Shown here piece after piece: positions 33,414 through 56,838 of a stretch of 64,000 nt of DNA. Below the pieces are notes generated by a model. It was not told the DNA's origin. It searched no databases and worked only from the letters and a program-made list of their open reading frames with translations. This stretch comes from Thermotomaculum hydrothermale (lineage in GTDB: Bacteria > Acidobacteriota > Holophagae > Thermotomaculales > Thermotomaculaceae), in assembly GCF_016592575.1 (NCBI RefSeq), contig NZ_AP017470.1:186001-250000 (forward strand), given 5' to 3'. The translations under genes and the position numbers were made by a program. Positions within the stretch are counted from its first letter, which is position 1, and every line of letters begins with the position of its first letter.

Positions 33414-33500
33414 TTGTTTTTGTTAAGAAAATCAAAAAGAAAAAACAATATATTTAGAAAAGTTAATAACTTCTTTTCAATTTTTTGGGAGGGCGCATGA
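33414..33500 (+). CDS. Possible 28-codon leader peptide before the subtilase
   Basis: TTG 33414 has a strong ribosome site AAGGAGAGG (33398-33406) seven bases upstream. The frame of 28 codons is basic (MFLLRKSKRKNNIFRK and on) and ends at TGA 33498-33500, which overlaps the subtilase ATG as ATGA. Spacing, overlap and the strong site suggest translational coupling to the protease. I know of no family match; it could be chance. Confidence 0.45.
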   Translation: MFLLRKSKRKNNIFRKVNNFFSIFWEGA

Positions 33501-38723: not shown

Positions 38724-39791
38724 ATGGATTTAAAAAGTAGAATTAAAAATAGAGAATTGCCCCAGGAAATTTTAAACGCCATTTCAACAATGAGTTTCCC
38801 CTTAACACCTGAGGATTATGTAGAGATATTGCCCTATGTTTATGAACAGGGCGACAAAACTCTAAAGGAAAATGTTGTTTCTACTATAAATAGGATGTCG
38901 TTAGACTTAATTATTCCCTTTCTTGAAACAACCGAAGATATTAATGATCTTGTTTTTTATTTTCAATTTTACTTAAAGGTTGAGCCTAATCCTGAGTTGC
39001 TAATCAAGATTTTAAATAATCCTCATTGTCCACCCTCTCTGTTTTCCCTTGCTGCAAATTGTAGTTATTCTGAGGTATTAACATATCTTGTAAATAATGT
39101 GTCTCTTTTGCAAAAGCATAAAAATATAGTTCCTATTTTATTTAAAAACAAATATTTAGATGGATTTCTAAAAGAAAAATTAAAAGAATATGAAGAATTT
39201 GGAATTTTAGGCGAGAAAAAACCTGAAGTCAAAAAAGAAGAAAAAGAGAAGGTTGAAGAAAAGGAAGATGAAGGCATAGTTGCCTTAAAAGAAAAGTTAA
39301 TTGAACAGGCTGAAAAAGAGGGGGTAAAACTTGATGAAAAATCTGAACTTGAGGTTAGAGAAGAAGATGTAGAAGAAGAAAACCTTACCCTTTATCAAAA
39401 ACTTTTAAGAATGACAGTTGCTCAAAAAATTGATAGAGCTTTAAAGGGAACCAAAGAGGAGAGGACATTATTAATAAGGGATTCAAATAAGGTTGTGGCA
39501 ATGGCTGTAATTCAGAGCCCAAAGATTACTGAGCAGGAAGTTGCAGCTATTGCCGGAATGAGAAATGTCCATAAAGATGTTTTAAGGTATATAGGTTCAA
39601 ATAGGCAGTTTTTAAAAAAGTACAAAATTATTCTTGCACTTGTGAAAAATCCTAAAACACCCCCGGACATAGCCCTTACCTTGCTTAATAGAATAGGTGA
39701 AAAGGATTTAAAATCACTTGTCAGGGATAGAGGTATATCAGAATTTGTCAGACAGGCGGCATCAAGGCTTTTAAAATCAAGAAAAAAGTGA
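38724..39791 (+). CDS. Helical-repeat protein of unknown function
   Basis: 355 residues, not recognised. The N-terminal 170 residues are helical and HEAT-like (YVEILPYVYEQ, NPHCPPSLFSLAA). A charged Lys/Glu linker covers about 172-225. The C-terminal 125 residues hold short helical repeats of the kind LIRDSNKVVAMAVIQSPKIT and LALVKNPKTPPDIAL, in which a residue pair N-P or S-P recurs every 38-39 residues. No signal peptide. It sits between RodZ and a DnaJ-TPR protein and three bases after rodZ, so it may take part in envelope or pilus assembly; this is inference. Confidence 0.7.
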   Translation: MDLKSRIKNRELPQEILNAISTMSFPLTPEDYVEILPYVYEQGDKTLKENVVSTINRMSLDLIIPFLETTEDINDLVFYFQFYLKVEPNPELLIKILNNPHCPPSLFSLAANCSYSEVLTYLVNNVSLLQKHKNIVPILFKNKYLDGFLKEKLKEYEEFGILGEKKPEVKKEEKEKVEEKEDEGIVALKEKLIEQAEKEGVKLDEKSELEVREEDVEEENLTLYQKLLRMTVAQKIDRALKGTKEERTLLIRDSNKVVAMAVIQSPKITEQEVAAIAGMRNVHKDVLRYIGSNRQFLKKYKIILALVKNPKTPPDIALTLLNRIGEKDLKSLVRDRGISEFVRQAASRLLKSRKK

Positions 39792-39801
39792 AATTATTTT
39801 A

Positions 39802-39829
39802 TTGCATTGTGTAATTTATTGTTTATAAT
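39802..39829 (+). promoter_or_regulatory. Promoter of the DnaJ-TPR gene
   Basis: TTGCAT at 39802-39807 and a perfect TATAAT at 39824-39829, 16-bp spacer; GAGGTGA ribosome site follows. Confidence 0.65.
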
Positions 39830-39852
39830 TTATATTAAGGTTGAGGTGAACA

Positions 39853-40515
39853 ATGAATTACTATGAAATTTTAGGAGTTTCACGTAATGCTTCCATAGAT
39901 GAAATAACTGCTGCCTTTAAAAAAAAGGTAAGAGATTTACATCCTGATAGATTTAATACTGAGGAAGAAAAGAGAGAAGCAGAGAAACAATTTAAAGAAG
40001 TAACACGTGCCTTCAATGTATTAAAAGATCCTGAAAAAAGAAGAGAATATGACAGGCAATTACAGGACTCCTTTTTGAAGGGAGAGAAAAAAACTGTATA
40101 CTCTTCAGTGAACAGTGACGAATTGTTTAAGAAAGGCCTGGTATTATACAAAAAAGGTGAATATGAAAATGCAGAAACTTTTTTCCAGGGGGCTATTGGC
40201 AGGGGGATGGCGACTGCAGATGCATATTACCACCTTGCTTTGGCCCAAATGCATTTGCCAAGGAGAAGTAAAAAGGTTGTTGAAAATCTGGAAAATGCGA
40301 TAAGCCTTGACCCTTTAAATGTTAAATTTAGAATTGCTCTCGCAGATTTTTATTTGCAAAAGGGAGTTAAATCAAAAGCTATTCATCATTATAAACGTGC
40401 TTTAAAGCTTGACCCGAAAAATAAAAGAGCAATAGAAGTTTTGAGAAGTTTTGGTATAATAAAAGAAAAGAATTTTTTAGAAAAGCTGTTCGGGAATCTT
40501 TTTAAGAGAGGTTAG
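39853..40515 (+). CDS. J-domain protein with TPR repeats
   Basis: 220 residues. The J domain fills residues 1-70 with the HPD motif (DLHPDRFN) and the FNVLKDPEKRREYD end. The C-terminal half has about three TPR units (LFKKGLVLYKKGEYENAETFF, in parts; AIHHYKRALKLDPKNKRA). It lacks the zinc and substrate domains of DnaJ, so it should direct DnaK to specific clients bound by the TPR. The PP2C gene follows after one base. Confidence 0.88.
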   Translation: MNYYEILGVSRNASIDEITAAFKKKVRDLHPDRFNTEEEKREAEKQFKEVTRAFNVLKDPEKRREYDRQLQDSFLKGEKKTVYSSVNSDELFKKGLVLYKKGEYENAETFFQGAIGRGMATADAYYHLALAQMHLPRRSKKVVENLENAISLDPLNVKFRIALADFYLQKGVKSKAIHHYKRALKLDPKNKRAIEVLRSFGIIKEKNFLEKLFGNLFKRG

Positions 40516-40516
40516 G

Positions 40517-41281
40517 ATGAATTACAGTTTTTTTGGGATAACTGATGTAGGGCAGAAAAGATCTCACAATGAGGATGCTTTTTTATACGATGAATCCCAC
40601 GGATTAGCAGTGGTTGCTGATGGAATGGGTGGGCATGCCGCCGGTGAGATAGCTTCAGGGATTGCGGTAGAAGTGATAAGTGAATTTATAAGAACTATGG
40701 ATAAAGACGGAGAGGTTACCTGGCCTTTTGATTACAACAATGAATTTTCTTTTGAGGCTAATCTTTTAATTGCAGGAATAAATTTAGCTAATGATAAAAT
40801 CCTTCAAAAGGTTGAAGAAAATAATAAATTAAAGGGAATGGGGACTACTGTTGTTGCCGGATTGTTTAAAGGAGAAAAAGTTACTATTGCCCATATAGGG
40901 GACAGTAGAGCCTATTATTTTAGAAATGGGAAGTTAAACTTAATCACAGAAGACCACTCCTGGGTCAATGAACAATTAAAAAAAGGAATTATAAGTGAAG
41001 AACAGGCAAGGGAACACCCTTTTAAAAATGTGGTTACGCAGGCCTTAGGTAGTGGCGAAAAATTATTTGTGGATATAGATGAGGTAAAAGTAGCAAGTGA
41101 TGATATTTTCCTTTTTTGTAGCGATGGAGTTAATTCTATGTTAAGTTATGAAGAGATGCAGGGTATTTTTGAGAAATTCAATGGAGATATTGAGCAGTTG
41201 GGAAAAAAGTTAATTGAGGGAGCAAATCAGGCTGGAGGGGATGACAATATAACCGTTGTTATTGTGAGGGCTTATGAATAA
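40517..41281 (+). CDS. PP2C-family serine/threonine protein phosphatase
   Basis: 254 residues with the bacterial PP2C (PrpC/Stp) motifs: DVGQKRSHNEDAF, VVADGMGGHAAGE, MGTTVVAGLF, IAHIGDSRAY, EDHSWVNEQL and AGGDDNITVV. All metal Asp residues are present. It dephosphorylates Ser/Thr-phosphorylated proteins. No Hanks-type kinase is in the window, but FHA domain proteins are likely readers of the same marks. It directly follows the J-domain gene and precedes the pilM promoter. Confidence 0.93.
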   Translation: MNYSFFGITDVGQKRSHNEDAFLYDESHGLAVVADGMGGHAAGEIASGIAVEVISEFIRTMDKDGEVTWPFDYNNEFSFEANLLIAGINLANDKILQKVEENNKLKGMGTTVVAGLFKGEKVTIAHIGDSRAYYFRNGKLNLITEDHSWVNEQLKKGIISEEQAREHPFKNVVTQALGSGEKLFVDIDEVKVASDDIFLFCSDGVNSMLSYEEMQGIFEKFNGDIEQLGKKLIEGANQAGGDDNITVVIVRAYE

Positions 41282-41365: not shown

Positions 41366-42418
41366 GTGTTATTTAAGAGAAAAAAACAATTAATCGGGCT
41401 TGACATTGGTTCTTCTTTTGTAAAACTTGTGGAATTAAAAGATTTAGGTAAGGGGAAAAATTTTCAACTTGTGAATGTTGGAGTTGAACCAGTTCCGCCT
41501 CAAAGTATAGTTGATGGCGGGATAATGGATTCATTTGCCGTATCTGAGGCGGTAAGAGCGCTTTTTGAGAGATTAAATGTTAAAAATGAGAAAGTAGCTA
41601 TTGCCGTTTCTGGTAATGGGGTAATTATAAAAAAAATTACCTTGCCAAAAATGAGCATGGAGGAATTAAACGACCAGATTAAATTTGAGGCAGAGCAATA
41701 TATTCCTTTTGAAATTGACGAGGTGAATATTGACTATGAGGTTGTAGATTCCAGTGAAGATGACCAGATGGATGTGGTGTTGGTTGCGGCAAAGAAGGAT
41801 GTCATAAGCGATTATACCTCAGTTGTTGTTCAGGCGGGACTTGAGCCACTTGTAGTTGATGTTGCCGCATTTGCTCTCCAAAACGCCTATGAGTTTAACC
41901 ATTTAATAGATCAGGATTTAATTACCGCTCTTGTTAATATAGGGGCATCCTCCACCAATATAAATATTCTTTTAGGTAACAAATCATTATTCTGGAGAGA
42001 CCTTTCTGTTGGAGGTTCTCTCTACACTCAAAATATTCAGAAAGAGCTTGGAATTGATTTTGATAGTGCAGAGAATCTAAAAAAAGGCAATAATGTTGAG
42101 GGCATTGCATTTGACAGCGTAATACCTATTATTAATCAAACATCAGAGGAGTTGATAGGAGAATTTTTGAAAACCTTTGAGTTTTTTAAAGCAACTTCCC
42201 AGTTTTCAACAATTGATAAAATTGTGTTATCCGGTGGAGCTGCAAAAACCCACGGCCTTGATAAGATGTTAGAGGATAAATCAGGAGTTAGGGTTGAAAT
42301 ATTTAACCCCTTTGAAAACATAAAGGTTGATGAAAGTGTATTTGACCCTGAGTTTATAAATGATGTATCTACAATGGTTTCAATAGCAGTGGGATTATCA
42401 CTGAGAAAGGAGATGTAA
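41366..42418 (+). CDS. pilM: Type IV pilus assembly protein PilM
   Basis: 350 residues from GTG 41366 (AGGAAGGTGGG upstream). It is an actin-like ATPase (LIGLDIGSSFVKLVEL; VALVNIGASSTNINIL type strand; KIVLSGGAAKTHGL) that forms the cytoplasmic ring under the pilus alignment complex and binds the N-terminal tail of PilN, the next gene. FEAEQYIPFEIDEV is the usual PilM segment. First gene of the operon. Confidence 0.95.
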   Translation: MLFKRKKQLIGLDIGSSFVKLVELKDLGKGKNFQLVNVGVEPVPPQSIVDGGIMDSFAVSEAVRALFERLNVKNEKVAIAVSGNGVIIKKITLPKMSMEELNDQIKFEAEQYIPFEIDEVNIDYEVVDSSEDDQMDVVLVAAKKDVISDYTSVVVQAGLEPLVVDVAAFALQNAYEFNHLIDQDLITALVNIGASSTNINILLGNKSLFWRDLSVGGSLYTQNIQKELGIDFDSAENLKKGNNVEGIAFDSVIPIINQTSEELIGEFLKTFEFFKATSQFSTIDKIVLSGGAAKTHGLDKMLEDKSGVRVEIFNPFENIKVDESVFDPEFINDVSTMVSIAVGLSLRKEM

Positions 42419-43027
42419 ATGATACAAATAAATCTTCTTTCAGGGAAGGAAAATTTAGCAAAAGATTTTGATACAAAGGTGTTTGCCCCGAAAGAAACAG
42501 GCGGTGGTGGAGATAAGAGCGATCAGTTAATCCAAATGGGCGCAGCGGTTGTTTTTATTATTGGTCTTGTTATTCTTGGTATCTGGATGTTTATGGCGTA
42601 TAACGGGGTAAGTAAAGCCAAAAGGCTGCTTGCTCAGAAAAGGGCAGAAAAGAAAAAGTATGAAAGTTTAATAAAAGAGCAAGATGCTCTCCAAAAGGAA
42701 CTGGATTTATTGAAAAAGAAGACTGATTTAATTAATAATCTTAAATCCAGGCAGTCAATCCCAGTTAAGATTCTTGAAGAGTTGTTTAATAGATGTCCGG
42801 ATAGTGTGTGGTTTGAAAGCATTTCTAAAAAGGGAAATCTTCTTGATTTGAAAGGGCAGGCAAAAAACTCAGAATCAGCGAACAATTACTACCAATTTTT
42901 GTCAGAATCCCCTATTGTTAAATCATTGCAATATCCTATTTTGAAAAAAGTTGAAAAATCAAAAATCCCGGGTATTGTTTATTTTGAATTTAAAATAACA
43001 TTAAAAGATAAGATGGATAAGGAGTGA
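42419..43027 (+). CDS. pilN: Type IV pilus assembly protein PilN
   Basis: 202 residues, beginning MIQINLLSGKE, the PilM-binding INLLP-like tail. One transmembrane helix (VVFIIGLVILGIWMFM, about 42-60), a coiled coil (about 65-105) and a ferredoxin-like periplasmic domain follow. The tail insert before the helix (to about residue 38) is longer than usual. It starts immediately after the pilM stop. Confidence 0.92.
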   Translation: MIQINLLSGKENLAKDFDTKVFAPKETGGGGDKSDQLIQMGAAVVFIIGLVILGIWMFMAYNGVSKAKRLLAQKRAEKKKYESLIKEQDALQKELDLLKKKTDLINNLKSRQSIPVKILEELFNRCPDSVWFESISKKGNLLDLKGQAKNSESANNYYQFLSESPIVKSLQYPILKKVEKSKIPGIVYFEFKITLKDKMDKE

Positions 43028-43030
43028 GTT

Positions 43031-43627
43031 ATGGAAAATCTATCTCCTAAGGCACAGGCCGGGTTGCTAATAGGTTTGCTTGCTATTTTTTACCTTATAG
43101 GGTATTTGGTTTTTATAAAAGGCTGGTATTCGTCCACAGCTTCTTACAATAAGCAAATAGAAAAACTTGATAAAGAAATAAAAGAAGCAAAAAAGCTAAC
43201 AAAACATATTGAACAATTTAGAGCAAAAAAGAAGGATTTGCAAAATCAATTAAAAATATTGAAACAAATTCTTCCTAGCAAAGAGGAAGCAGGCCAGCTT
43301 TACAGTAAATTAAATAAAATGGCTCAGGAAAGTGGAGTAGAAATAGTTGAAATTAAGGCAGGACAGAAAAAGCCCATGGGCATAACCTTTGAGCTTCCTT
43401 ACAAGATCAAAATGAAAGCAAGGTATCATGATGTTGGCTTTTTCTTTGCAAAACTTGCAAACTTTGAAAAAATTATCAATATAACAGAGTTTAAAATGGA
43501 AAAACCAAAAAAGATTACTTCTAAATATTCAGTTTTTGTTGATTGTACAGCTTCCACATATATTTACAACGAGAATGCAGACAATATGGAGGCCGACAAT
43601 TCAACAAATAGAAGGAGAAGAAGATGA
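43031..43627 (+). CDS. pilO: Type IV pilus assembly protein PilO
   Basis: 198 residues: a short cytoplasmic start, one transmembrane helix (GLLIGLLAIFYLIGYLVFI), a coiled coil (about 38-75) and the PilO domain (LPSKEEAGQLYSKLNKMAQ, ITFELPYKIKMKARY, YHDVGFFFAKLANFEKII). It pairs with PilN to join PilM to PilP/PilQ. The C-terminal tail NRRRRR is unusually basic. Overlaps pilP by ATGA. Confidence 0.93.
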   Translation: MENLSPKAQAGLLIGLLAIFYLIGYLVFIKGWYSSTASYNKQIEKLDKEIKEAKKLTKHIEQFRAKKKDLQNQLKILKQILPSKEEAGQLYSKLNKMAQESGVEIVEIKAGQKKPMGITFELPYKIKMKARYHDVGFFFAKLANFEKIINITEFKMEKPKKITSKYSVFVDCTASTYIYNENADNMEADNSTNRRRRR

Positions 43628-44121
43628 AAAAGGTAACAGTAATATTAATAGTGCTTTCTTTTGTCTTCTCTGGGGTTGCGCAGGTCAAGGATAAAAAAGA
43701 GAATAAATCTCAGGTTCCTGAGGTTGTTATGCCGTTTACTTATCAACCTAAATCAAAAAGGGATCCTTTTATTTCCCCTTTTGACCTTGAAATGCTAAAA
43801 ACCGGGAAAAAGAAAAAGATTCCTGGAATAGCAGGGATGTCAATTGATGAGATTGTTTTACAGGGAATTATAAAGTCAAAGAAAAGAGGGTACGAGGCTC
43901 TTGTTTTAGGTAGTGATAATAAAGTTTACTGGATAAAACCGGGGGATAAGTTATACGATGGAGAGGTATTAGAAATTGGAATGGGCAAAAAATCTCCGGA
44001 TGAAATTTCGTCTCCTGCTGAGGCTGGAAAAGTTTTTGGGTATGTTATTTTCAGGCAGTACGTTAATGACCCAAGTTTAATTAAACCTTACAAAGACATA
44101 AAAAAATATTTGGATAAATAG
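43624..44121 (+). CDS. pilP: Pilus assembly protein PilP
   Basis: 165 residues. A signal sequence (MKKVTVILIVLSFVFSGVAQ) without the usual lipobox Cys, so it may not be lipidated. KRDPFISPF is the PilP core start, and GIAGMSIDEIVLQGIIKSK and WIKPGDKLYDGEVLEI cover the beta-sandwich that docks on PilQ. It links the inner-membrane PilNO complex to the secretin. Confidence 0.9.
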   Translation: MKKVTVILIVLSFVFSGVAQVKDKKENKSQVPEVVMPFTYQPKSKRDPFISPFDLEMLKTGKKKKIPGIAGMSIDEIVLQGIIKSKKRGYEALVLGSDNKVYWIKPGDKLYDGEVLEIGMGKKSPDEISSPAEAGKVFGYVIFRQYVNDPSLIKPYKDIKKYLDK

Positions 44122-44130
44122 GAGGGGTAA

Positions 44131-46131
44131 ATGTTTAAACGTGTTTTTCTGTTACTTTGCTTAATATCGTTAAGCCAGGTGGTGTTTGGGTTTTCTATTA
44201 AGGGGATAAACTTTGTAGAAAACAAAAGTGGGACAAAAGTTACTGTTATTCATGACAGCAATAACCCCCTCCACTATAATATTGTGACAAATAACGGGAG
44301 ATTGTTTGTGGTTGAAATAGAGGGGATTGGAAATATAAAAACAGAGGTTCCTGTTATAAATACAGAAGAGGTAATGTCATTCAATGCTGAACCTATTGAT
44401 GATGTTATTAGATTGACCTTTTTGCTAAAGGATAATGTGAAGGCCAAAGTATTGAACAATCCAAGAACCCTGTCTTTTATATTCTATCCTGTAAAGGATA
44501 AAACGACTATAAAATCAATTGATGTTGAAGATGTCCTTGACAACTTAACTCTTGTAAAGTTTGCATGCAATAAAAAACCTTATTATACAATTGAAAAAGA
44601 CAACAATATTGTGACTTTAGTTTTGCATAATGCATCTTTAGCAACTAATATCAATGATATAAAAGGCGTTAAAGTATCGCAGCTTGATGATGATGTAATT
44701 GTAAAAGTTCAGAAAGATGTTGAACACCTTTCAACCAGGGTTAAGTTTTCAAACAACAGCTTACTTCTCTATGTAGGCGAACAGGTTCAAGCTGCACAGG
44801 AAACTACCCCAGAACAAGTAACCGGGAATGAGGAACTGCAGTATGCTTTTTTAACAAAGACTATTGCAGGTGGCCAAAAAAAGTATGTGGGAGAAAAGAT
44901 TGGTTTAATTGATATTAAAGATATTGATATAAGAGATTTGCTCAGATACATAGCAGATTTTGCAGGCTTAAACCTTATTGTTGATTCCTCTGTTGAAGGG
45001 ACTGCTACATATAGATTTAAAGATATTCCCTGGGATCAGGCATTAGACATTATATTAAAAGACAAAGGTTTGGGAAGTGAATTACAAAACGGTGTTTTAA
45101 GGGTTGCAACACTTGATAAGTTTAGAAAAGAGGCTGAAGAGAGAAGAAAACTTAAAGAGGAAAAGGAACTTGCAGTAGATACTCAGACAATAGCAAAATC
45201 CCTTTCATATGCAAAAGCAAAAGAAGTTGAACCTATTTTGAAATCATTCCTTTCAAAAAGAGGGCAGATAATTGTTGATGAAAGGACAAATACCGTAATT
45301 ATTACAGATATTCCCAAAAAGATCCCGCCTATTTTAGAAATGATTGACCTTCTTGATAGGGCGAATACTCAGGTACTTATTGAGGCAAGAATTGTAGAAA
45401 CCAAAAAGGTTTTTGCAAAAGAAATAGGTATTCAATGGGGATTCACTGGAATATACGATTCATCTCTGGGTACCCAGACAGGTATGTCATTTCCAAATAC
45501 TATTAGGGTAGGTGGAACTGTAAACCCGGCAGACGGGACATTGGGGCCAATTGGAAGTGGTTATGCGGTTAATTTGCCTGCTGTGAATACTACATCTTCA
45601 ATAGGATTGATGTTAGGGAATGTCTTAGGTTCATTCTCCCTTGATATGGTTTTGTCTGCAATGGAAAATGAAGGAATGGGAAGGATTTTATCAAGACCTC
45701 ATGTCGTTGCTCAGAATAATAAAACAGCGGTTATTGAAAGTGGTGCGAGAATCCCTATTCAGACAGTTCAGAACAATACGGTAACTGTGAAGTACATTAA
45801 TGCTTCGTTGAAATTAGAGGTGACACCTCAGATTACGGCTGAAGGAACTATAATTATGGATTTGAATGTTAAAAAAGAGGAGCCTGACTGGACACATACT
45901 GTTCAGGGTAACCCGACAATTATTACAAGAAATGCAAATACCCAGGTGCTTGTAAAGGATGGCGGCACTACGGTAATAGGTGGAATTTTCCAGGTAAATG
46001 ATCAGAATTCTAACGACTATGTTCCAGGTTTAAGAAACATTCCGTTGATAAGCTGGTTATTTAGGCACAAGCTTGAAAGTTCTGAAAATAATGAATTATT
46101 GATTTTTATAACCCCAAAAATAGTTAAATAA
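44131..46131 (+). CDS. pilQ: Type IV pilus secretin PilQ
   Basis: 666 residues. After a signal peptide comes an AMIN-like beta region (peptidoglycan or septal targeting), a second weakly conserved region, the STN domain (IDIRDLLRYIADFAGLNLIV), secretin N domain (KSLSYAKAKEVEPILKSFL; TNTVIITDIPKKI) and the secretin core (LIEARIVETKK; LSRPHVVAQNNKTAVI; VKDGGTTVIGGIF; VPGLRNIPLISWLF; ELLIFITPKIV). It makes the outer-membrane gate for the pilus. AAGGAGGGG-type ribosome site upstream. The set lacks pilA-D/T, which must lie elsewhere. Confidence 0.96.
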   Translation: MFKRVFLLLCLISLSQVVFGFSIKGINFVENKSGTKVTVIHDSNNPLHYNIVTNNGRLFVVEIEGIGNIKTEVPVINTEEVMSFNAEPIDDVIRLTFLLKDNVKAKVLNNPRTLSFIFYPVKDKTTIKSIDVEDVLDNLTLVKFACNKKPYYTIEKDNNIVTLVLHNASLATNINDIKGVKVSQLDDDVIVKVQKDVEHLSTRVKFSNNSLLLYVGEQVQAAQETTPEQVTGNEELQYAFLTKTIAGGQKKYVGEKIGLIDIKDIDIRDLLRYIADFAGLNLIVDSSVEGTATYRFKDIPWDQALDIILKDKGLGSELQNGVLRVATLDKFRKEAEERRKLKEEKELAVDTQTIAKSLSYAKAKEVEPILKSFLSKRGQIIVDERTNTVIITDIPKKIPPILEMIDLLDRANTQVLIEARIVETKKVFAKEIGIQWGFTGIYDSSLGTQTGMSFPNTIRVGGTVNPADGTLGPIGSGYAVNLPAVNTTSSIGLMLGNVLGSFSLDMVLSAMENEGMGRILSRPHVVAQNNKTAVIESGARIPIQTVQNNTVTVKYINASLKLEVTPQITAEGTIIMDLNVKKEEPDWTHTVQGNPTIITRNANTQVLVKDGGTTVIGGIFQVNDQNSNDYVPGLRNIPLISWLFRHKLESSENNELLIFITPKIVK

Positions 46132-46152
46132 ATATATATGAGGGAGAAAGAT

Positions 46153-47493
46153 ATGATGAAAAGACTTTTAACAATTTTTAGCCTTTTTATAGTTGTTGCA
46201 GGAATGGTTGCTTGTAGTGGTGGTGCAGAGGGCGATCCTCAGGTGCCCAGCACTTTTAAAATTGAAAGTGTACTGTCAGAGGGAAATACCAACAATGTGG
46301 AAGCTGATATGATTAATAGTGATGATGGTCTTACTGCTGATTATGTTTCAGTTACTGTTAGCAATTACTTAAAAAATGCATCCGCTACTCCTTCACACTT
46401 TAACGACATTACAATTTACAAGTACAGCGTTCATTTTTATAGAAACGATGGCGGAACAGTGTTTAGCGACTTTGAAAGAGCAGTAACAGAGACAGTTCAG
46501 GTAAACTCTACAAAAACATTTAGTCTTGAATTGGTAAGGTTAGATGAAAAAACCCATGGTGCTCTTGCTGGGACTTACTCCCCTTACGAAATGAATGCTG
46601 AAATTACCCTTTATGGTAAAAACGGTTCAGGCCAGTATGTTCAGGCTAAGGGGACAATTGGCATTACAATTGCCAACTTTGGAAACGATACCGCCAGCCT
46701 TACTCCTTCAATTGATTTGTTAAGTGCAGACAAAACTATAATTTCAGACGGCGATGATGTAACATTATTCTGGTTGTTATCCGGTAGTGTTGCTGAAATA
46801 GTTATTCAACCTGGAGATATCCATCTTAACCCGGTTGATTACTACCCTTACGGTTCTTATACTCTTCATAATGTCACTCCTCCCGTAACTTACACATTAA
46901 TTGTTTCAAGCCCGTTTGGAACTGCTTCTTCAGAGGTTTCTATAGATTCTGCTGCAACTTCTGGCGGTGTTATTGACCCTGTTATAAACCTTTTTATGGT
47001 TTCTCCAACAACTATAAGCGCAGGTCAGCAGGCGGTTATCAGTTATGATGTCTCAAATGCCGATTCTTTAACTCTTTACCCAGGAGCCCAGACTTTAACA
47101 TTACCTTCAGGTGAAATAACTGTAAGCCCAACATATACGACAGATTATGTATTGCTTGCAAAGAATAATTCTGGAGGAATGGCAAGTGCAACTCAAACAT
47201 TAACAGTAAACAATGTGACTGAAGCAAGTATTACAATGTTTACTGGCTCAAGGAAAGAAGTAGAGGCTGGTGATGTAATTACTTTATACTGGACTATTGA
47301 GGGTACTTACGATAAAGCTGAAATTTTCCCATGGAATGCTGCTAACGATACAGACAAGATAATGGAAGTTACTGGAATGAACTCTATTACAACTCCTCCT
47401 ATTAATAATGACACTACCTTTGTACTCTCTGTATACTCAGGGAACAAAGTGATCAATGCTACATTTGAAGTTACTCTTGCGCAAAACAATTAA
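46153..47493 (+). CDS. Lipoprotein with Ig-like repeats, after pilQ
   Basis: About 446 residues from ATG 46153 (GAGGGAG upstream; an ATG at 46138 lies before the ribosome site). Lipobox VVAGMVACSG. After an N-terminal beta domain come three or more Ig-like units with the same grammar as in the subtilase: SADKTIISDGDDVTLFW, SPTTISAGQQAVISY and EVEAGDVITLYW. It is likely an outer-membrane or periplasmic lipoprotein. Its place directly after pilQ suggests a pilot or structural partner of the pilus. Function not known. Confidence 0.8.
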   Translation: MMKRLLTIFSLFIVVAGMVACSGGAEGDPQVPSTFKIESVLSEGNTNNVEADMINSDDGLTADYVSVTVSNYLKNASATPSHFNDITIYKYSVHFYRNDGGTVFSDFERAVTETVQVNSTKTFSLELVRLDEKTHGALAGTYSPYEMNAEITLYGKNGSGQYVQAKGTIGITIANFGNDTASLTPSIDLLSADKTIISDGDDVTLFWLLSGSVAEIVIQPGDIHLNPVDYYPYGSYTLHNVTPPVTYTLIVSSPFGTASSEVSIDSAATSGGVIDPVINLFMVSPTTISAGQQAVISYDVSNADSLTLYPGAQTLTLPSGEITVSPTYTTDYVLLAKNNSGGMASATQTLTVNNVTEASITMFTGSRKEVEAGDVITLYWTIEGTYDKAEIFPWNAANDTDKIMEVTGMNSITTPPINNDTTFVLSVYSGNKVINATFEVTLAQNN

Positions 47494-47502
47494 GGGAGTT
47501 AA

Positions 47503-48471
47503 ATGCTCGAAAAGATTGATTTAGTAAAACAGGTTGAGAAAAAGATAAAAAACAATGATTATAAAGGGGCACTTGGTGACATCACCAGGTGCCTCGAATT
47601 GTATCCAAATTTTATTGTAGCCAAGGTTTTGAAGGCAGAGTGCCTGCTTAACCTTAATAATGCGGAAGAGGCTCTCGCTCTTGCAAATGAAGTATTATTT
47701 TCAAGTCCTGATAATATTAAAGCAAGAAAGATTGCTATTGAGGCTAATTTAAGAGTGGGTAATGTAGAAGAAGCAAAAAGTCATGTTGATTTTTTAGGCT
47801 TTCTTCTTCCTGCAAATCACCCTTATTTAGATGAAATTAAGAAGAAGATTAATGAACAAGAAAAGTTAAGTCAGGTTGACAATGATGAAACCTTTGAAAT
47901 TGAAAGAACTGAATTAACTAATGATAAAGATGAACAGCCAGATGAAGTTATTGAAAATGTAGATCAGGAATTAAAAGAAGAAGACTACCCTGTTGAGAAA
48001 ACAAAAGAGATTTCTGAAGACGAAAGAATAGAAACTGATAGGGACGAAGATGAATTGGTAAAGGATTCTGAAGAAAAAGAAGATGATTTCCTGATTGAAT
48101 CTCAGGATATTGAGGAAGAAATCGGAGATGAGTATTCAAGCGGAGAGCAGGTAGATGAAATTAAAAAAGAAGAAGTTGTAACAGGAGTTCTTCCGGATCA
48201 GATTTCAACAGTCACATTACCTGACAAAAAAGAAGAGCCTGAAATAAAGACAAGGACACTGGCTTTGATATATGAAAGACAGGGTATGTTTGAAGAGGCT
48301 CTTGAGATATTAGAGAATCTTTTTGATGAAACTCAAGATATAGAGCTTCTAAAAGATATTGAAAGAATTAAAACCAAATTAAAGGGCGGAGATAAAAACG
48401 AATTTGTTATTAAAAAAATAAAGATTCTTGAAAATTGGTTAGAGAGAGTGAAATGGCATTCAAGCAATTAA
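47503..48471 (+). CDS. Acidic TPR protein of unknown function
   Basis: 322 residues. The first 110 form about three TPR units (NDYKGALGDITRCLELYPN; AEEALALANEVLF; GNVEEAKSHVDFL). Residues about 125-235 are a low-complexity Glu/Asp linker. A single C-terminal TPR-like hairpin (YERQGMFEEALEILENLF) and helix close the protein. No signal peptide. The next gene starts inside its last 19 bases. An acidic linker between interaction repeats suggests a scaffold, perhaps for the pilus base; this is inference. Confidence 0.7.
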   Translation: MLEKIDLVKQVEKKIKNNDYKGALGDITRCLELYPNFIVAKVLKAECLLNLNNAEEALALANEVLFSSPDNIKARKIAIEANLRVGNVEEAKSHVDFLGFLLPANHPYLDEIKKKINEQEKLSQVDNDETFEIERTELTNDKDEQPDEVIENVDQELKEEDYPVEKTKEISEDERIETDRDEDELVKDSEEKEDDFLIESQDIEEEIGDEYSSGEQVDEIKKEEVVTGVLPDQISTVTLPDKKEEPEIKTRTLALIYERQGMFEEALEILENLFDETQDIELLKDIERIKTKLKGGDKNEFVIKKIKILENWLERVKWHSSN

Positions 48472-48785
48472 TATCAGATTTAAATGTAAAATCTATTCTG
48501 GTTTTTGATAGTCAAGGCTTGTTGATATACTCTTCTGAGGCAATCTATGATTATATCCATGAGCCTGAAATGTTAGCTGTAGAATTGTTGGATTTTGTTA
48601 ATTCTTTGCAACCTTTGCCTTTGTTTTTCCCTGACCATTATATTATTAAGGCTGATGGTCTCAATTTTTTTGTAAAAAAACACCAGGATTTTTATGTTGT
48701 GCTGCTTGCAGATGATAGCAGATTGTTAAAAGCCAATCTGGATTTTATAAAAGTTTATAATAGGGTAATAAAGACTCTTTTATGA
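48453..48785 (+). CDS. Small protein, possibly Roadblock/LC7-like
   Basis: About 110 residues from ATG 48453 (AGAGAG upstream). The start NVKSILVFDSQGLLIYSSE resembles the first strands of Roadblock/LC7 domains (MglB, RarD), followed by a helix and two more strands (HYIIKADGLNFFVKK, FYVVLLADDSRLLKAN). Roadblock proteins regulate small GTPases such as MglA, which place pili in some bacteria. No MglA is in the window and the match is by eye only. Overlaps the TPR gene by 19 bases and pepP/Q by four. Confidence 0.5.
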   Translation: MAFKQLISDLNVKSILVFDSQGLLIYSSEAIYDYIHEPEMLAVELLDFVNSLQPLPLFFPDHYIIKADGLNFFVKKHQDFYVVLLADDSRLLKANLDFIKVYNRVIKTLL

Positions 48786-49879
48786 AAAATTTCCAATTTG
48801 ATTTTAAAAATAGAATTCAAAAATTAAGAGATTTTTTGTGTTTGAAGAAACAAAAGGCAGTTTTATTTACTGATTTAAAGGATATTTTTTATTTTTCAGG
48901 CTTTAAAGGTAGTAAAGCCTTTTTATTGATTACTGGCGACAAAGAATTTCTTATTACTGATTTCAGATACTTTGAAAAAGTTGATAAAGATGGTTGTTAC
49001 GGTGAATTATTTAAGGTTAAATCAAGCTATTTTGATGATACTGCTGGATTTATTTTTTCTCTTAAAATTAAAGAAATTGTATTAGATGAGGCCAAAACAA
49101 CTTGTGAGATTTACAATGAATTAACCTCACGATTACCTGAGACATCTTTTTCTTTTCAAAAAAATATTAGTAACGAAATAAGAGGTGTAAAAGAGAAAGA
49201 AGAAATTGAAATTATAAAGGAGGGGGCTTTAAAAACCTCAAAAGTTTTTGAGAAAGCCCTTTCTTTTTTGACAAAGGGGATAACGGAGAAATCTTTTGCT
49301 TTAATCCTTGAAGATCTGCTTAAAAAAGAGGGTTTTGAAAATGTGTCTTTTCCCCCTATTGTGTTGTTTGGGAAAAATTCAAGTATGCCCCATGGAGAAT
49401 CAGGTAATACTCCATTAGATGAAAATCAGGCTGTGCTTGTTGATTTTGGCGGTATATATAAAGGCTATTGTACAGATTTTACAAGAACCTTGTTTTTTGG
49501 TAATCCCGATAGTTCTTTTATACACATTTACTCTAAACTTTTAAATTGTCAGAAAACTGTTATAGATAAAGCTCGTACCGGGATGAAGGCTTTTCAAGTT
49601 GATGCTATTGGTAGAGAGTGTCTTGATTCTGTTAGCCTGGGAGAATTTTTTCAACACAGCCTTGGACATGGAGTAGGGCTTGAGATTCATGAATCCCCTA
49701 TGGTTTCCCCCTTTAGTGATATTGTTATTGAGAATGGAATGGTTTTTACTGTTGAGCCTGGAGTTTATTTTGAAAATAGGTTTGGCATTAGAATAGAAGA
49801 TATGGTTGTAGTTGAAAATGATAGGTTGAATGTATTGACTGATTTTCCAAAAGAACTTATACTCATTAAGCAGGAATAA
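48782..49879 (+). CDS. M24 Xaa-Pro-type aminopeptidase
   Basis: 365 residues. The N-terminal creatinase-like domain (VLFTDLKDIFYFSGFKGS) precedes the pita-bread domain with the metal ligands: Asp pair in VLVDFGGIYKGYCTDFTRT, His in SLGHGVGLEIHE, and the two Glu in TVEPGVYF and RIEDMV. It removes N-terminal residues before proline. It stands next to efp, a common pairing, and overlaps the preceding gene by ATGA. Confidence 0.93.
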   Translation: MKNFQFDFKNRIQKLRDFLCLKKQKAVLFTDLKDIFYFSGFKGSKAFLLITGDKEFLITDFRYFEKVDKDGCYGELFKVKSSYFDDTAGFIFSLKIKEIVLDEAKTTCEIYNELTSRLPETSFSFQKNISNEIRGVKEKEEIEIIKEGALKTSKVFEKALSFLTKGITEKSFALILEDLLKKEGFENVSFPPIVLFGKNSSMPHGESGNTPLDENQAVLVDFGGIYKGYCTDFTRTLFFGNPDSSFIHIYSKLLNCQKTVIDKARTGMKAFQVDAIGRECLDSVSLGEFFQHSLGHGVGLEIHESPMVSPFSDIVIENGMVFTVEPGVYFENRFGIRIEDMVVVENDRLNVLTDFPKELILIKQE

Positions 49880-49891
49880 TGGAGGTGAAAT

Positions 49892-50452
49892 ATGTACGAT
49901 ACAAGTGACTTTAGAAATGGTCTAAAAATTGAAATTGATGGCACCCCTTTTGAAATAATAGAGTTTTTACATGTAAAACCTGGGAAGGGTGGTGCTTTTG
50001 TTAGAACAAAGTTAAAAAATCTTCAAACCGGGGCGGTTTTAAACAAAACCTTTCGTTCAGGTGAAAAGGTGGGCAAACCTGACCTTGTTGATAGACATAT
50101 GCAGTTTCTTTACTCTCAGGGCGATGAATTGGTTTTTATGGATCTGGAAACATACGAACAATTTACTATTCCCTTTGAAAAGATAGAGGATAAAGCAAAA
50201 TTTTTGAAGGAAAATATGGAAGTAGACGTTCTATACTATAAAAATGAACCTATCTCTGTTGAGTTACCTACTTTTGTAGAATTAGAGGTTGTGGAAACAG
50301 AGCCTGGATTTAAGGGAGACACAGCAACTGGTGGAACGAAGCCGGCTGTTCTTGAAACAGGAGCTAAAATAAATGTCCCTCTGTTTATTAATGTTGGGGA
50401 TAAATTAAAGATTGACACCAGAACCGGTCAGTATGTTGAGAGGGTGAAATAA
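49892..50452 (+). CDS. efp: Translation elongation factor P
   Basis: 186 residues, the standard length. Domain I ends in the loop [10 protein letters not shown], with K32 at the tip where modification takes place; the C-terminal signature KTINVGD-like segment is [22 protein letters not shown] relieves ribosome stalling at polyproline. The modifying enzymes are not here. The stop overlaps the accB start by one base (TAATG), an efp-accB-accC order seen in many bacteria. Confidence 0.97.
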
Positions 50453-50901
50453 TGGATATAAAAGAAATAAAACAATTGATGGAAGCATTTGCTAAAAATG
50501 GTTTGACAAAGCTTGAACTTACAAATGGAGATTTTAGTATAAAATTAAAAAAAGAGGTCTCTGAAGTAAAGGTTGTGCAAGCAGGAGAACCAGTCCATGT
50601 TCCTTCTGTTACCCCTGCAAAGGTGGAAACTGTTGAAGAAAAAGAAGAGGGAGACGAAAACCTGATATACATTACATCTCCAATTATTGGAACATTTTAC
50701 AGAGCACCCAGTCCAGATTCAGACCCTTATGTAGAGGTTGGAAGCAGGGTGAAAAAGGGAGATGTTCTTTGCATCGTTGAAGCTATGAAAATTATGAATG
50801 AAATTGAAAGTGAGTATGATGGGGTAATTGTCAAAATCTTCCCGAAAAATGCTGAGGCTGTGGAATACGGCCAGAAGCTTTTTGCGTTAAAGCCTGAGTA
50901 A
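50452..50901 (+). CDS. accB: Biotin carboxyl carrier protein of acetyl-CoA carboxylase
   Basis: 149 residues. N-terminal helical part, an acidic linker (to about 70), then the biotinyl domain with K113 in [12 protein letters not shown] as the biotin site; the thumb segment [17 protein letters not shown] is present. It carries CO2 between AccC (next gene) and the carboxyltransferase, starting fatty acid synthesis. Confidence 0.96.
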
Positions 50902-50913
50902 TAAGGGAAAGGT

Positions 50914-52275
50914 ATGTTTAAAAAGATTCTTATTGCGAACAGAGGAGAGATTGCTCTTCGAGTAATTAATGCTTGCAGGGAATTGGGAATAAAAACTGTT
51001 GCAGTATACTCTGAAGCAGACAAAGACTCTCTTCATGTTAAATTTGCTGATGAGTGCATATGCATAGGTCCTCCGCAAAGTTATAAAAGTTATTTGCATA
51101 TACCTTCTATCATTGCAGCGGCAGAAATTACAGGGGCTGATGCTATACACCCTGGATATGGTTTTCTTGCTGAAAATGCTCAATTTGCTGAAGTGTGTAA
51201 AAGTTGTGGCATTACTTTTATAGGGCCGGAACCTGATCACATAAGGCTTATGGGAGACAAGGCTGTTGCAAGGCAAACTGTAATGAAGAAAAATGTTCCT
51301 GTTGTTCCTGGTAGCGAAGGTGGATTGTCCGATATTGGTGAATTAAAGTCATTGGCAGCTAAAATTGGGTACCCTGTAATCCTTAAAGCCTCGGCAGGTG
51401 GAGGCGGAAAGGGAATGAGAGTTGTCTGGAGCGAGGATGAACTACAGTCGCAATTTGAAACAGCAAAAAATGAAGCAATGGCAGCTTTCGGCAATCCAGA
51501 GATATACCTTGAAAAATATATTGTTAATCCCAGGCATATTGAGATTCAGATTGTGGCGGATAAATTTGGCCATGTTATTTACCTTGGTGAAAGAGAATGC
51601 TCAATTCAAAGGAATCATCAGAAAATTATTGAAGAGGCACCGTCATCGGTTTTGACTGATGATTTAAGAAAAGCCATGGGACAGGCTGCAAAAAAAGTTG
51701 CATCTGCTATTGGATACTCCAATGTGGGAACGGTGGAATTTTTATTAGACAAGGACAATAACTTTTATTTTATGGAAATGAATACCAGAATTCAGGTAGA
51801 ACATACTGTAACAGAAGGAATTACAGACATTGACCTTGTTAAACTTCAGATTGAGCTTGCAGCAGGGGAAAAATTAAAATTAAAACAAAAAGATATTAGG
51901 ATTACTGGGCATGCAATTGAGTGCAGGGTAAATGCTGAAGACCCAAAAACTTTTATGCCATCTCCAGGTAAGATTGAAGCTTTTCATACCCCAGGAGGAC
52001 CAGGAATAAGAATTGATACTGCAGCCTACGCAGGCTATACAGTTCCTCCATATTATGATTCAATGATTGCCAAAGTGATTGCCCATGGGAGAAACAGGGA
52101 AGAAGCAATTGCCAGAATGAAAAGGGCGTTGGAAATGTTTCTTATTGAGGGGATAAAAACAAATATCCCATTACATTTAAAGATTCTTGAAGACGAGTTT
52201 TTTATTAAAGGGGAAATTAATACACACTTTATGGAAGAGTTTTTCAGGAGAAATGAGATATCTGGTACTGAGTGA
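50914..52275 (+). CDS. accC: Biotin carboxylase subunit of acetyl-CoA carboxylase
   Basis: 453 residues. ATP-grasp enzyme with [15 protein letters not shown] at the start, the glycine-rich lid [32 protein letters not shown] and [14 protein letters not shown]. It carboxylates biotin on AccB. Twelve bases after accB. The C terminus overlaps the phosphodiesterase gene by 23 bases. Confidence 0.97.
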
Positions 52276-52990
52276 TATTCACTCAAATATTGATGCTTTC
52301 AATTCGGTTTTATCTTTCTTTAAGAGGAAAAAATACAATAAAATTCTGTTTTTAGGTGACCTTGTAGGCTATGCTGCTGCCCCCAATCAGGTTGTTGAAA
52401 AATTCCGCTCATTGAAAAATGTGCTTTATGTTAGAGGGAATCACGATAAGGTATGTTCAGGCATAGAAAAAGGCAATCATTTTAATGATAAGGCAAAGGC
52501 AGCAGCTTTGTGGACTATGAAAAAGCTTACCAGGAATAACCTAAATTTTCTAAAAAAAATGCCCCAAGGACCCTTGGAAGTTAACAATGATATTCTAATA
52601 GCCCATGGTTCACCAATAAACGAAGACTTCTATATTTTTTCTGACTTTGATGCCTATCAGATTTTTATGCAGACAAATCACTTTATTACATTTATTGGGC
52701 ATACTCACTTACCAATTGTATATGAGTTTGATGGAGAAGATGTAAATGGATTCTTTTTAAGGGATAGAATGGTAATAAAACTTGATAGGAAAAAAAGGTA
52801 TATTATAAATCCTGGTTCTGTTGGCCAGCCAAGAGATAGAGACCCCAGAGCATCTGCTATTATTTATGACAGTAAACTTGACAAAATTTATGCGTATAGA
52901 ATAAATTACAATATTAACAAAGCTTTTGATAGGATTGTTAAAGAAAGGCTTCCTATTCATCTTGCTATAAGGCTGGGGTATGGAGTTTAA
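52253..52990 (+). CDS. YfcE/MJ0936-type metallophosphoesterase
   Basis: About 245 residues from ATG 52253 (CAGGAG upstream, inside accC). Calcineurin-like motifs: [43 protein letters not shown] and [10 protein letters not shown]. This single-domain cytoplasmic type hydrolyses phosphodiesters in vitro; the natural substrate is unknown. The next gene overlaps by 11 bases. Confidence 0.9.
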
Positions 52991-53375
52991 AGGGAAAAAG
53001 GGATTTACTGTAATTGAATTAATGGTCGTAATGACCATTATTCTTTTGCTGGCATCAGTGGCTGTTAAAATTAACAAAAAAGCCATTATTAAAGCAAAAG
53101 AAGCGGTATTAAAGGAGAACCTGTTTCAAATGAGGCAGGCTATTGAGCAGTACTATGCAGACAAGGGGCACTATCCAGATAGTCTTGAAACACTGGTTGA
53201 CGATGGATATATGAGAGAAATCCCCAAAGACCCATTCACAAAATCTTCAGACACATGGCAGGTTGAATATGAAAACCCTGAAGATGTAGGTGAAGATTAT
53301 GAGCCTGGTATAATTGATGTAAAAAGTGGATACTCAGGTAAAGCTCTGGATGGGACAAACTATGATGAGTGGTAA
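52980..53375 (+). CDS. Type II/IV pseudopilin (GspG-like)
   Basis: 131 residues. The prepilin cleavage site is KKG|FTVIELMVVM, with Glu at +5, followed by the hydrophobic spine. The C-terminal part has the GspG pattern: YYADKGHYPDSLETLVDDGY, IPKDPFT and W near the end. It is made as a precursor for the prepilin peptidase and would enter a pseudopilus or a type IV pilus. It overlaps its neighbours on both sides. Confidence 0.92.
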   Translation: MEFKGKKGFTVIELMVVMTIILLLASVAVKINKKAIIKAKEAVLKENLFQMRQAIEQYYADKGHYPDSLETLVDDGYMREIPKDPFTKSSDTWQVEYENPEDVGEDYEPGIIDVKSGYSGKALDGTNYDEW

Positions 53376-53949
53376 CAATAAGGGGTATATATTAACTGCT
53401 ACAATAGTAATGATTGTAATCCTCTCTATTTCAATGGCTTTAATTGCGGAAAAATGGACATATGTTGTAAAAAGGGAAAAAGAAAATGAACTTTTATTTA
53501 GAGGAGAGCAATACGCTCAGGCTATAAGAAGGTTTTATTTAACCCATAAAAGGTATCCCTTTGAGTTAAAAGAATTAATTGAAAGTAATCCAAGGTGTAT
53601 AAGAAGGCTTTACAGAGAGCCTTTTTCAAAGGATGGTAAATGGGGACTTATTTATTTGTCAGACCTGGCCAGCGGGAAAGTTTTTAAAAAAACAAATACT
53701 GCAGAAGAAGGAAACGGTAAGCAAACTTCAAACCCTAATCCTGTTCCAGTGGGACAAATATACAATAAATCAAGCCAGCCTATTATAACCGGGCAAATTG
53801 TAGGTGTATTTTCAAAGTCTAAAGACAGGCCTTATAAAGACTTTATGAAAGGGGATGTGTATTCAGATTGGAAGTTTATAGCCCCGGTAATAACCAGAAA
53901 CAAGAAAATAGAATTAAGGAGAGAGTCTGATGAAATTCAACGAAAATAA
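53362..53949 (+). CDS. Pseudopilin-like membrane protein
   Basis: About 195 residues from ATG 53362 or 53365; the frame is open a little further but a start there would overlap the GspG-like gene more. NKGYILTATIVMIVILSISMAL is a degenerate prepilin-like N terminus with no Glu at +5 (G|YILTATI). After the helix, FLTHKRYPFELKELIE matches the pseudopilin Y-P pattern, and a Pro/Asn-rich tail follows. It probably works with the previous gene. Whether it is processed is unclear. Confidence 0.75.
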   Translation: MMSGNNKGYILTATIVMIVILSISMALIAEKWTYVVKREKENELLFRGEQYAQAIRRFYLTHKRYPFELKELIESNPRCIRRLYREPFSKDGKWGLIYLSDLASGKVFKKTNTAEEGNGKQTSNPNPVPVGQIYNKSSQPIITGQIVGVFSKSKDRPYKDFMKGDVYSDWKFIAPVITRNKKIELRRESDEIQRK

Positions 53950-55713: not shown

Positions 55714-56838
55714 ATGAAAATTAGAAAAAAAGTTTTATTTTTTGCAATGTTTCTAATGATTTTTGCCGGTATGTCTTATGCTGAGATTACAGTTGAAAAG
55801 CATTGGACTCCGTATAATCCTCCTACATCATATCCAGATGGCACAAAAGTATACATAATTGTTAAAGGAGATACACTCTGGGACCTTGCAGGGAAGTTTT
55901 TTAATAACCCCTATCTCTGGCCAAAGATCTGGGAAAAGAATAAATATATAACAGACCCACACTGGATTTATCCGGGAGACCCTCTTGTAATAGAAGAAGT
56001 AGAAACAGTTAAAGAAGCAAAAGCGGAGACTCAGCCGGAGCAGGAAGTAAAAGAGTTTCAGGAAGAAAAAGAAGAAAAGGTTGAAGAACCCACACATAAA
56101 GAAATACAACAGGTAAATTCAAAAGAAGAGGCTAAAGTAACTGAATCAGCTACAGTAGCAGATATAAAAAATGCTATGTATTCGATTACTGTTGACTCTC
56201 CAAAAGACTATGAAGCTAAAAGCTTTAACGGAGTTGTTGTAGAGGGAGATGAAGACGAACAACTTACATTTGCTGTACCTGATGTTATTTATGCAAAAGA
56301 ATTTGCAGACGGGAAATTAGTTGCAAATGAAACTTATGCAGTTGTTAGACCTGAAAAAGTGGTTAAAGTTGAGAAAGATAAGTATGTTGTTATACTCCAG
56401 AGGCTTGCAGATGTTAAAGTTCTCTGCGTAAACGATGGCATTGCAACAGCAAAATTTATTTACTCTTCCCATCCTGTTGAGAGGGGAGATTTTCTTGTTA
56501 AATTAGAGTATGAACCTATTCCTTTAATGGTGGATTATAAACCAAAAACAGGGGATTGCCAGATTCCTGACAGGGCAAAGATGTTGAAAATATACATGGC
56601 GAAAGATAAGGCCTACCATGCAGGCCAGGGCTCTACGGTTGTTATTGAAGGGGGAGAAAAAGGCGGACTTAACGCAGGGGATATTGTACAGTTTTTTAGA
56701 AAATTAAAACATATTGACAGATATATCTATCTTGGAGAAGGAGTTGTTCTATTTTCCAATGATTACACCTCAACTGTTAAGGTTGTTTATTCAGAAAAAG
56801 AAATGCCTGTTGAGGAAACAGTAGCTGTAAAAAGGTAA
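55714..56838 (+). CDS. Secreted LysM-domain protein
   Basis: 374 residues. Signal peptide (KKVLFFAMFLMIFAGMSYA). A LysM domain at about 45-92 (VKGDTLWDLAGKFFNNP, WIYPGDPLVI) should bind peptidoglycan. A Glu/Lys-rich linker (95-145) leads to a 230-residue C-terminal domain of beta strands that I do not recognise, with PVERGDFLV and LNAGDIVQFFRK. The layout is that of periplasmic cell-wall anchor proteins seen in several Gram-negative phyla. Confidence 0.85.
   Translation: MKIRKKVLFFAMFLMIFAGMSYAEITVEKHWTPYNPPTSYPDGTKVYIIVKGDTLWDLAGKFFNNPYLWPKIWEKNKYITDPHWIYPGDPLVIEEVETVKEAKAETQPEQEVKEFQEEKEEKVEEPTHKEIQQVNSKEEAKVTESATVADIKNAMYSITVDSPKDYEAKSFNGVVVEGDEDEQLTFAVPDVIYAKEFADGKLVANETYAVVRPEKVVKVEKDKYVVILQRLADVKVLCVNDGIATAKFIYSSHPVERGDFLVKLEYEPIPLMVDYKPKTGDCQIPDRAKMLKIYMAKDKAYHAGQGSTVVIEGGEKGGLNAGDIVQFFRKLKHIDRYIYLGEGVVLFSNDYTSTVKVVYSEKEMPVEETVAVKR

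Follow-up and report, generated by a model that had tools for sequence, protein, structure and literature searches.

What is a Roadblock-type protein doing among the genes of a type IV pilus? The question is raised by a 64,000-nucleotide stretch of the Thermotomaculum hydrothermale genome (contig NZ_AP017470.1, positions 186,001 to 250,000), called here the window and numbered from its first letter, in which three open frames on the forward strand follow pilQ. They encode a lipoprotein (46153-47493, 446 residues), a tetratricopeptide repeat (TPR) protein (47503-48471, 322 residues) and a protein of 110 residues (48453-48785, ATG at 48453) with a predicted Roadblock fold, MglC-like by position. 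A first-pass annotation had seen in them an MglA/MglB-like polarity system, tied through the TPR protein to the secretin complex, and its interpretation turns out to be partly supported. On balance we think it somewhat probable that the Roadblock protein belongs to the MglC branch, sits at the old mglC place behind pilQ, has diverged strongly in this family and acts as an adaptor that joins the polarity module to the pilus base on its cytoplasmic side. The observations behind this reading are the predicted fold, the gene order, the relation of ortholog profiles to MglC, the presence of MglA, MglB, RomR-like and SgmX-like genes, and a tryptophan motif that recurs in the TPR partner, in other phyla too.

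A predicted Roadblock fold and its nearest relatives

Is the 110-residue protein really a Roadblock protein? Its AlphaFold model, built from 14 aligned sequences (mean predicted local distance difference test score, pLDDT, 83.7; predicted template modelling score, pTM, 0.77), runs from a helix through two strands, a short helix, a helix and three strands to a long helix. Among the Foldseek matches listed, nearly all are MglB, archaeal Roadblocks, dynein light chains and Ragulator-type subunits, and VIA aligns the model with MglB 3t1s at Z 12.5 (root-mean-square deviation 2.4 over 109 residues), other Roadblock-type chains among the 50 matches listed having Z of about 9 to 12. The Roadblock fold proposed at first pass is therefore predicted by both model and fold searches, and is as firm as prediction makes it. 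The predicted fold does not separate MglB from MglC; MglC was not among the matches listed, which excludes nothing. For this protein hmmscan against Pfam and NCBIfam returned nothing, and a six-frame Robl_LC7 search of its own genome gave a weak match on the gene (11.8 bits, E 0.338; the Pfam cut-off is 23 bits). M. xanthus MglC itself has no Pfam match at E 0.1, and 26 of the 33 relatives in alignment A4 match Robl_LC7.

Which Roadblock protein is it, then, MglB or MglC? The orthologs allow the two to be compared. Profile A5 (25 syntenic sequences, none from the window's family) finds as its best match in the PDB the MglC of M. xanthus (7ct3/7cy1, 95 bits, E 2.6e-26), and MglB 6h5b at E 0.65. 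A profile of the MglC side, made from 32 sequences of L144-L177 (Myxococcota, Desulfobacterota, Nitrospirota), outscores an MglB profile (15 sequences out of 20 loci of the window's class) on all 32 orthologs outside the window's family, with 10.8-110 bits vs at most 7.8; these orthologs were gathered by Roadblock profiles, so the comparison is one of MglC vs MglB only and no test of Roadblock membership. The E value of 0.65 and the ceiling of 7.8 bits led us to reject an MglB-type GTPase-activating protein (GAP). The first-pass version, in which the pil operon encodes such a GAP for MglA, has thus become very improbable, although the fold is right for it, MglB stands among the best structural matches and MglA does co-occur as supposed: at E 1e-15 it is found in all 63 genomes, of 396 in the phylum, that a profile of Roadblock proteins matches, vs 201 of the 333 Roadblock-negative ones (Fisher 7e-13, kinship ignored). 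The genome has its canonical mglB-mglA pair in another place, at 1.666 Mb, no MglA gene is found among the frames around the Roadblock gene, and the 110 residues leave out the extra terminal parts given for MglB in PMC7949163. What stands of the MglA/MglB-like system is the predicted fold and the presence of MglA; by place and relatives the protein is of the MglC kind.

How close is the window's own protein to MglC? Here several results weigh against the reading we prefer. The protein scores -0.9 bits with the MglC profile, no sequence-profile match, and the eight sequences of its own family stay at noise (-1.4 to 5.3 bits); with the MglB profile the window protein has no match either (-1.4 bits). 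A family-only profile finds no match in the PDB, profile A1 reached MglC there at just E 0.031, and hhalign between the window's family and its sister family is weak (probability 4.8, E 0.0084). The interface residues are changed too. In Myxococcus the FDI and KRR motifs bind MglB and RomR (PMC10329633; for the FDI turn also PMC7949163). In the window protein the FDI turn is absent, SQGL replacing FDGI with Gly alone kept, and so is the KRR patch of the last helix, KANLDFIK replacing GKGRYVLR; these residues were read off alignments, and the FDI/KRR pattern finder was a rough regular expression. The window protein is thus linked to MglC via place, fold and intermediates, not via its own sequence, and since both the MglC match and the interface motifs are missing we do not file it as MglC. 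It is probably an MglC-like positional ortholog, not a proven MglC, that works at MglC's place. The changed residues may mean that in the window's family the Roadblock protein no longer has RomR or MglB as a partner and that the TPR protein is the only one it serves. Could the gene instead be a drifting MglC relic, its fold kept and its old partners gone? The undetectable MglC match and the altered interfaces would fit, yet the frame is intact in the window and in seven of the eight other family genomes (in the eighth, L058, the contig stops inside the gene), Roadblock protein identity is 68-88% within the genus, and the overlap with the TPR frame is retained; we give this idea a small chance.

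The TPR partner and the other polarity genes

What could connect such a protein to the pilus? The gene before it encodes a TPR protein, as annotated (TPR_19 E 7.8e-11), whose AlphaFold model (mean pLDDT 68.5, pTM 0.40, with the disordered part below 50) places TPRs confidently at residues 1-127, leaves 128-248 disordered and closes with a C-terminal TPR followed by one last helix at 297-320 (KIKILENWLERVK); Foldseek on the model returns TPR domains. The linker 128-248 is 41% Asp+Glu with a net charge of -37, which bears out the acidic character assigned to the protein. Inspection of its N-terminus reveals neither signal peptide nor lipobox. The claimed link of this scaffold to the secretin complex could not be direct: with PilQ in the outer membrane and both the TPR and the Roadblock protein cytoplasmic, any contact would lie at PilM/PilN or the ATPases and not at the secretin. 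Pilotins of the PilF/Tgl type are TPR proteins that are lipoproteins, and the same inspection led us to reject the window's TPR protein as one of them.

Is there a feature of the TPR protein that could meet the Roadblock protein? A motif in its last 45 residues, L-x2-[WF]-L-x2-[ILV], occurs in strict form in 36 of 44 TPR partners and in loose form in 43, vs 0 and 5 of 489 other operon proteins; it was read from the very set of 44 on which it was counted. That set leaves out L144-L171 and 16 hand-listed loci, two of them in that range, where the upstream frame is pilQ or another gene, and the upstream frame was not obtained for L158 and L177. For the controls we took the best-labelled frames of L104-L177, 489 once those labelled TPR were removed; of the 31 removed, 26 carry the strict motif. 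Among 16 later loci held out from the count, 14 have a TPR gene and ten of these 14 the strict motif. Four points on this helix count against the favoured explanation. The strict motif is missing in the other four held-out partners (L188 retains the Trp without the rest; L191, L193 and L197, of one genus, are without the motif). The last helix is not more amphipathic than its shuffled versions: its moment of 0.304, vs a shuffle mean of 0.263, is reached by 35% of them. The TPR and RomR helices have a Trp in common and no common sequence pattern. Finally, a profile of the TPR C-terminal helix has no match in the M. xanthus genome, which for so short a motif says little. Docking of the Trp helix on a Roadblock dimer is suggested by analogy with RomR, whose Trp394 is required for MglC binding (PMC12719032). 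We identified RomR in M. xanthus by its length, its linker and residues E390, K391, W394 and E402, the one that fitted among 20 places examined of 150 with receiver domains.

Which other parts of a polarity module does the genome hold? Most of the Myxococcus polarity set has homologs here, and no other observation hints as strongly that the Roadblock gene of the pil operon belongs to that set. Apart from the mglB-mglA pair there are four further MglA-like GTPases, L179-L182 (G000:C1:1735567, 2035177, 1268965 and 673027; frames of 388-720 residues), that of L179 having a long acidic tail. A RomR-like protein of 549 residues (L224, G000:C1:2289860-2290006) has a receiver-like start, judged by eye, a very acidic long linker and, near its end, IREIAWEVIPQIAEDIV; the protein matches the last 70 residues of RomR at E 3.9e-5, its RomR-type C-terminal helix carries Trp and Pro, and helix matches occur in 15 of the 31 genomes searched. 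An SgmX-like TPR protein (G000:C1:1766693-1767202, E 9.1e-27, frame of 956 residues) has matches in all 31. The window's TPR protein was also considered as an SgmX ortholog and rejected, the sole match of its own genome to the C-terminal part of SgmX at an E cut-off of 0.001 being that same SgmX-like gene.

The place behind pilQ

How general is the position of the Roadblock gene? In 51 of 62 neighbourhoods (the 63 positive genomes minus the window) pilQ lies upstream, at most 5.5 kb away; with the window this makes 52 of 63, so the conservation next to pilQ envisaged at first pass is found. Seven of the 11 loci without pilQ offer at most 3.5 kb of upstream sequence to read, and in L058 the contig breaks off within the Roadblock gene. 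Of the 51 loci with pilQ, 35 have a called TPR gene adjoining the Roadblock gene. Two observations speak against our reading: L134, L141 and L192 have 6-8 kb of upstream sequence from which pilQ is absent, and 16 of the 51 loci have no TPR gene called beside the Roadblock gene, so that the TPR-Roadblock pair is not obligatory. In 15 of these 16 the Roadblock gene stands at most 271 bases behind pilQ; in L122 a frame is present at the TPR place, unlabelled by the TPR profile. Family f2, which belongs to the same class, contributes no genome to the 63.

Closer to the window, eight other genomes of its family have the lipoprotein, TPR and Roadblock genes in identical order and strand as far as the contigs reach (L058 ends within the Roadblock gene; the contigs of L060 and L061 start only within the TPR or lipoprotein gene), which puts the frames beyond chance. 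L055, L056, L061, L062 and L064-L067 come from genomes outside the sample of the phylum. The order pilMNOPQ, lipoprotein, TPR, Roadblock and then some or all of pepP, efp, accB and accC is common to the window's family and to its sister family f64. In the latter, the syntenic Roadblock gene is above the Pfam cut-off in six of seven genomes (24.3 to 32.1 bits); the seventh, G156, is not in the Pfam matches and its Roadblock gene was recovered by profile A1. The window protein alone, run against 149 genomes, gave one convincing match besides itself (G013, E 8.7e-8), and loci chosen on weak matches (L063, L069-L073) have none of the operon genes. As separate observations, one contig of G010 has two Roadblock matches of identical score, one on each strand (G010:C1:783177-783443 and 1743681-1743947), a recent duplication or an assembly repeat, and the sibling genus has a second TPR gene beside a weak Roadblock match (13-14 bits, below the cut-off), not on the pil-operon contigs (G013:C31:19984-20767, G153:C88:2485-3283, G155:C27:655-1441; frames of about 268 and 120 residues).

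Does the same place recur far from this phylum? A search of named genomes with the MglC chain yielded 34 loci. In the 28 myxococcal ones (L144-L171) pilQ is upstream of mglC in 27 (L167 begins behind pilQ), efp downstream in all 28, and accB and accC in 27 (L164 ends earlier). M. xanthus (L144) reads pilM, N, O, (P not called), Q, a 230-residue lipoprotein frame, MglC, EFP, AccB, AccC and then a 1052-residue TPR frame, taken as SgmX; the literature has MXAN_5772 as PilQ (PMC3222651), MXAN_5770 as MglC, with structure 7CY1 (PMC11112851), and MXAN_5766 as SgmX (PMC7519303). The six further loci (Nitrospiraceae, Geobacter, Citrifermentans, Deltaproteobacteria) have a TPR gene immediately before the Roadblock gene in five cases, and upstream pilQ was reached in two. 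One record titled Comamonas sp. KCTC 72670 (L147) holds a Myxococcus-like pil-mglC locus with an MglC 95% identical, and is probably mislabelled or mixed.

The lipoprotein has its counterpart there as well. It starts MMKRLLTIFSLFIVVAGMVACSGG, with a lipobox MVAC judged by eye, and consists of an N-terminal domain common to other post-pilQ lipoproteins followed by Ig-like repeats. Part of this first domain is akin to the lipoprotein that Myxococcaceae encode between pilQ and mglC (aligning 24 of their sequences with 25 from the window's phylum, hhalign gave a probability of 95.8 and a pairwise E of 6.6e-9 over 98 columns), a relation that HMMER recovers patchily, in 4 of the 24 and 2 of the 25 sequences. 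The Ig-like repeats resemble those of a secreted protease at 33485-37780 (BLASTP E 4e-6), a large protein that we take to be subtilisin-like.

How tightly are the three genes bound to their neighbours? They lie where the first-pass annotation had them, and the coupling is as it described: 21 bases separate the pilQ stop (46131) from the lipoprotein gene, whose frame has an upstream in-frame ATG at 46138, 15 bases before 46153; nine separate the lipoprotein and TPR genes; the Roadblock ATG is within the TPR frame, the two overlapping by 19 bases; and Roadblock and pepP overlap by 4 (ATGA). Upstream, on the same strand, are what we take, from sequence and a gene order also kept in relatives, to be pilM (41366-42418), pilN (42419-43027), pilO (43031-43627) and pilQ (44131-46131), with pilP (43624-44121) barely at the Pfam cut-off. 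A gene for a pepP-like M24 peptidase (48782-49879, Peptidase_M24 E 9.1e-62) and, presumably, efp (49892-50452), accB (50452-50901) and accC (50914-52275), again in an order kept in relatives, follow downstream on the forward strand. The three genes do come after pilMNOPQ, but to call them a continuation of the pil operon tells half the story: the run extends into pepP-efp-accBC, and tight coupling by itself is therefore no proof of a pilus role.

Might the TPR-Roadblock pair then be functionally tied to pepP-efp-accBC, its nearness to pilQ being an old accident of operon layout? One or more of accB, accC, efp and pepP is downstream in 44 of 61 loci; L141 reads TPR-Roadblock-AccB-AccC and L192 TPR-Roadblock-PepP, each with pilQ absent within 8 kb, and in Citrifermentans (L176) 5.5 kb lie between pilQ and the pair. 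Against this, ten loci (L108, L109, L110, L115, L120, L123, L124, L128, L131 and L143) have the Roadblock gene behind pilQ with neither a TPR gene nor accB, accC, efp or pepP detected, although the sequence stops some 180 bases past the Roadblock gene in L120 and some 2.3 kb past it in L123, and the nearest characterised relative, MglC, functions in polarity (PMC10329633, PMC12719032). We regard the tie to the downstream genes as unlikely.

The surroundings offer some further observations. Before pilM (38724-41281), in the window and likewise in relatives with long enough contigs, are genes for a 355-residue protein without clear family, a DnaJ-TPR protein and a PP2C-like phosphatase. Two overlapping genes follow accC at 52980-53949, the first, of pilin or pseudopilin type, with matches to N_methyl and T2SSG, the second with no Pfam match. 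At 55714-56838 a 374-residue LysM protein (LysM E 2.2e-6) with a signal-like start is a candidate TsaP-like secretin partner.

A possible link to the polarity module, compared with known systems

How would an MglC-type adaptor at the pilus base work? The N-terminal TPRs would bind a component of the base (PilM, PilB or PilC), the acidic linker would provide reach, and the TPR protein would hold a Roadblock dimer there, which would recruit or sense MglB/MglA; the lipoprotein would act across the envelope, near PilQ. We infer the physical interactions, the dimer and the role in polarity from the observations above. Why does it matter? The route from the MglA polarity module to the type IV pilus machine is understood only in part; SgmX has been proposed to recruit PilB (PMC11580455). 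If MglC-type genes belong to the pil operons of several phyla, together with a TPR partner bearing a docking helix, the link becomes testable outside myxobacteria, for example in Geobacter-type bacteria, and a recurrent pair of unnamed genes gains a likely function. A bolder and quite tentative idea is that the TPR protein and an MglC-type Roadblock formed an ancestral, pre-myxobacterial receptor for the MglA module at the pilus base in several phyla, of which Myxococcus lost the TPR half, leaving RomR alone to hold MglC, while in the window's lineage the Roadblock drifted to fit the TPR protein. If true, this receptor would be a missing physical link between the polarity module and the pilus machine.

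How new is the system? Less so than the phrase 'little-described system' in the first-pass annotation implied: MglC has already been studied in Myxococcus and, with MglA, MglB, RomR and SgmX known, the kind of system is known. New, as far as open papers go, is the recurrence of an MglC-type gene in pil operons far from myxobacteria, along with a TPR partner carrying a Trp helix. No report of a TPR-MglC pair in pil operons was found in open-access papers. McLoon et al. 2016, outside that scope, is said to have named MglC; it may contain the gene order already and anticipate some of what is described here.

Which known proteins does the pair most resemble? With MglB, the GAP of MglA, the Roadblock protein has in common the fold and its best structural matches; it differs in that the profile of its orthologs scores MglB at noise and in that its gene is not beside mglA. 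MglC (M. xanthus MXAN_5770; 7CT3, 7CY1) is likewise short and of Roadblock fold, its gene occupies the same place behind pilQ and a lipoprotein gene and before efp-accB-accC, and the syntenic orthologs match its profile. The window protein differs in being undetectable against MglC by sequence and in lacking the FDI and KRR residues, and its gene adjoins a TPR gene, whereas Myxococcaceae have none at that place. The TPR protein recalls SgmX (MXAN_5766) and Bd2492, TPR effectors of MglA, which are cytoplasmic and carry TPRs at both termini and between them a region without matches (PMC7519303); in the window's TPR protein the middle is disordered and a signal peptide absent by inspection. It differs from SgmX in being unmatched by the SgmX C-terminal part, in its C-terminal Trp helix and in adjoining the Roadblock gene. 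With RomR, the response regulator that binds MglC, it shares a linker that is long and disordered and a helix at the C-terminus in which a Trp is important (for RomR, PMC12719032 and PMC3441718), whereas it is without a receiver domain, its helix differs in sequence, and the genome holds a separate RomR-like protein.

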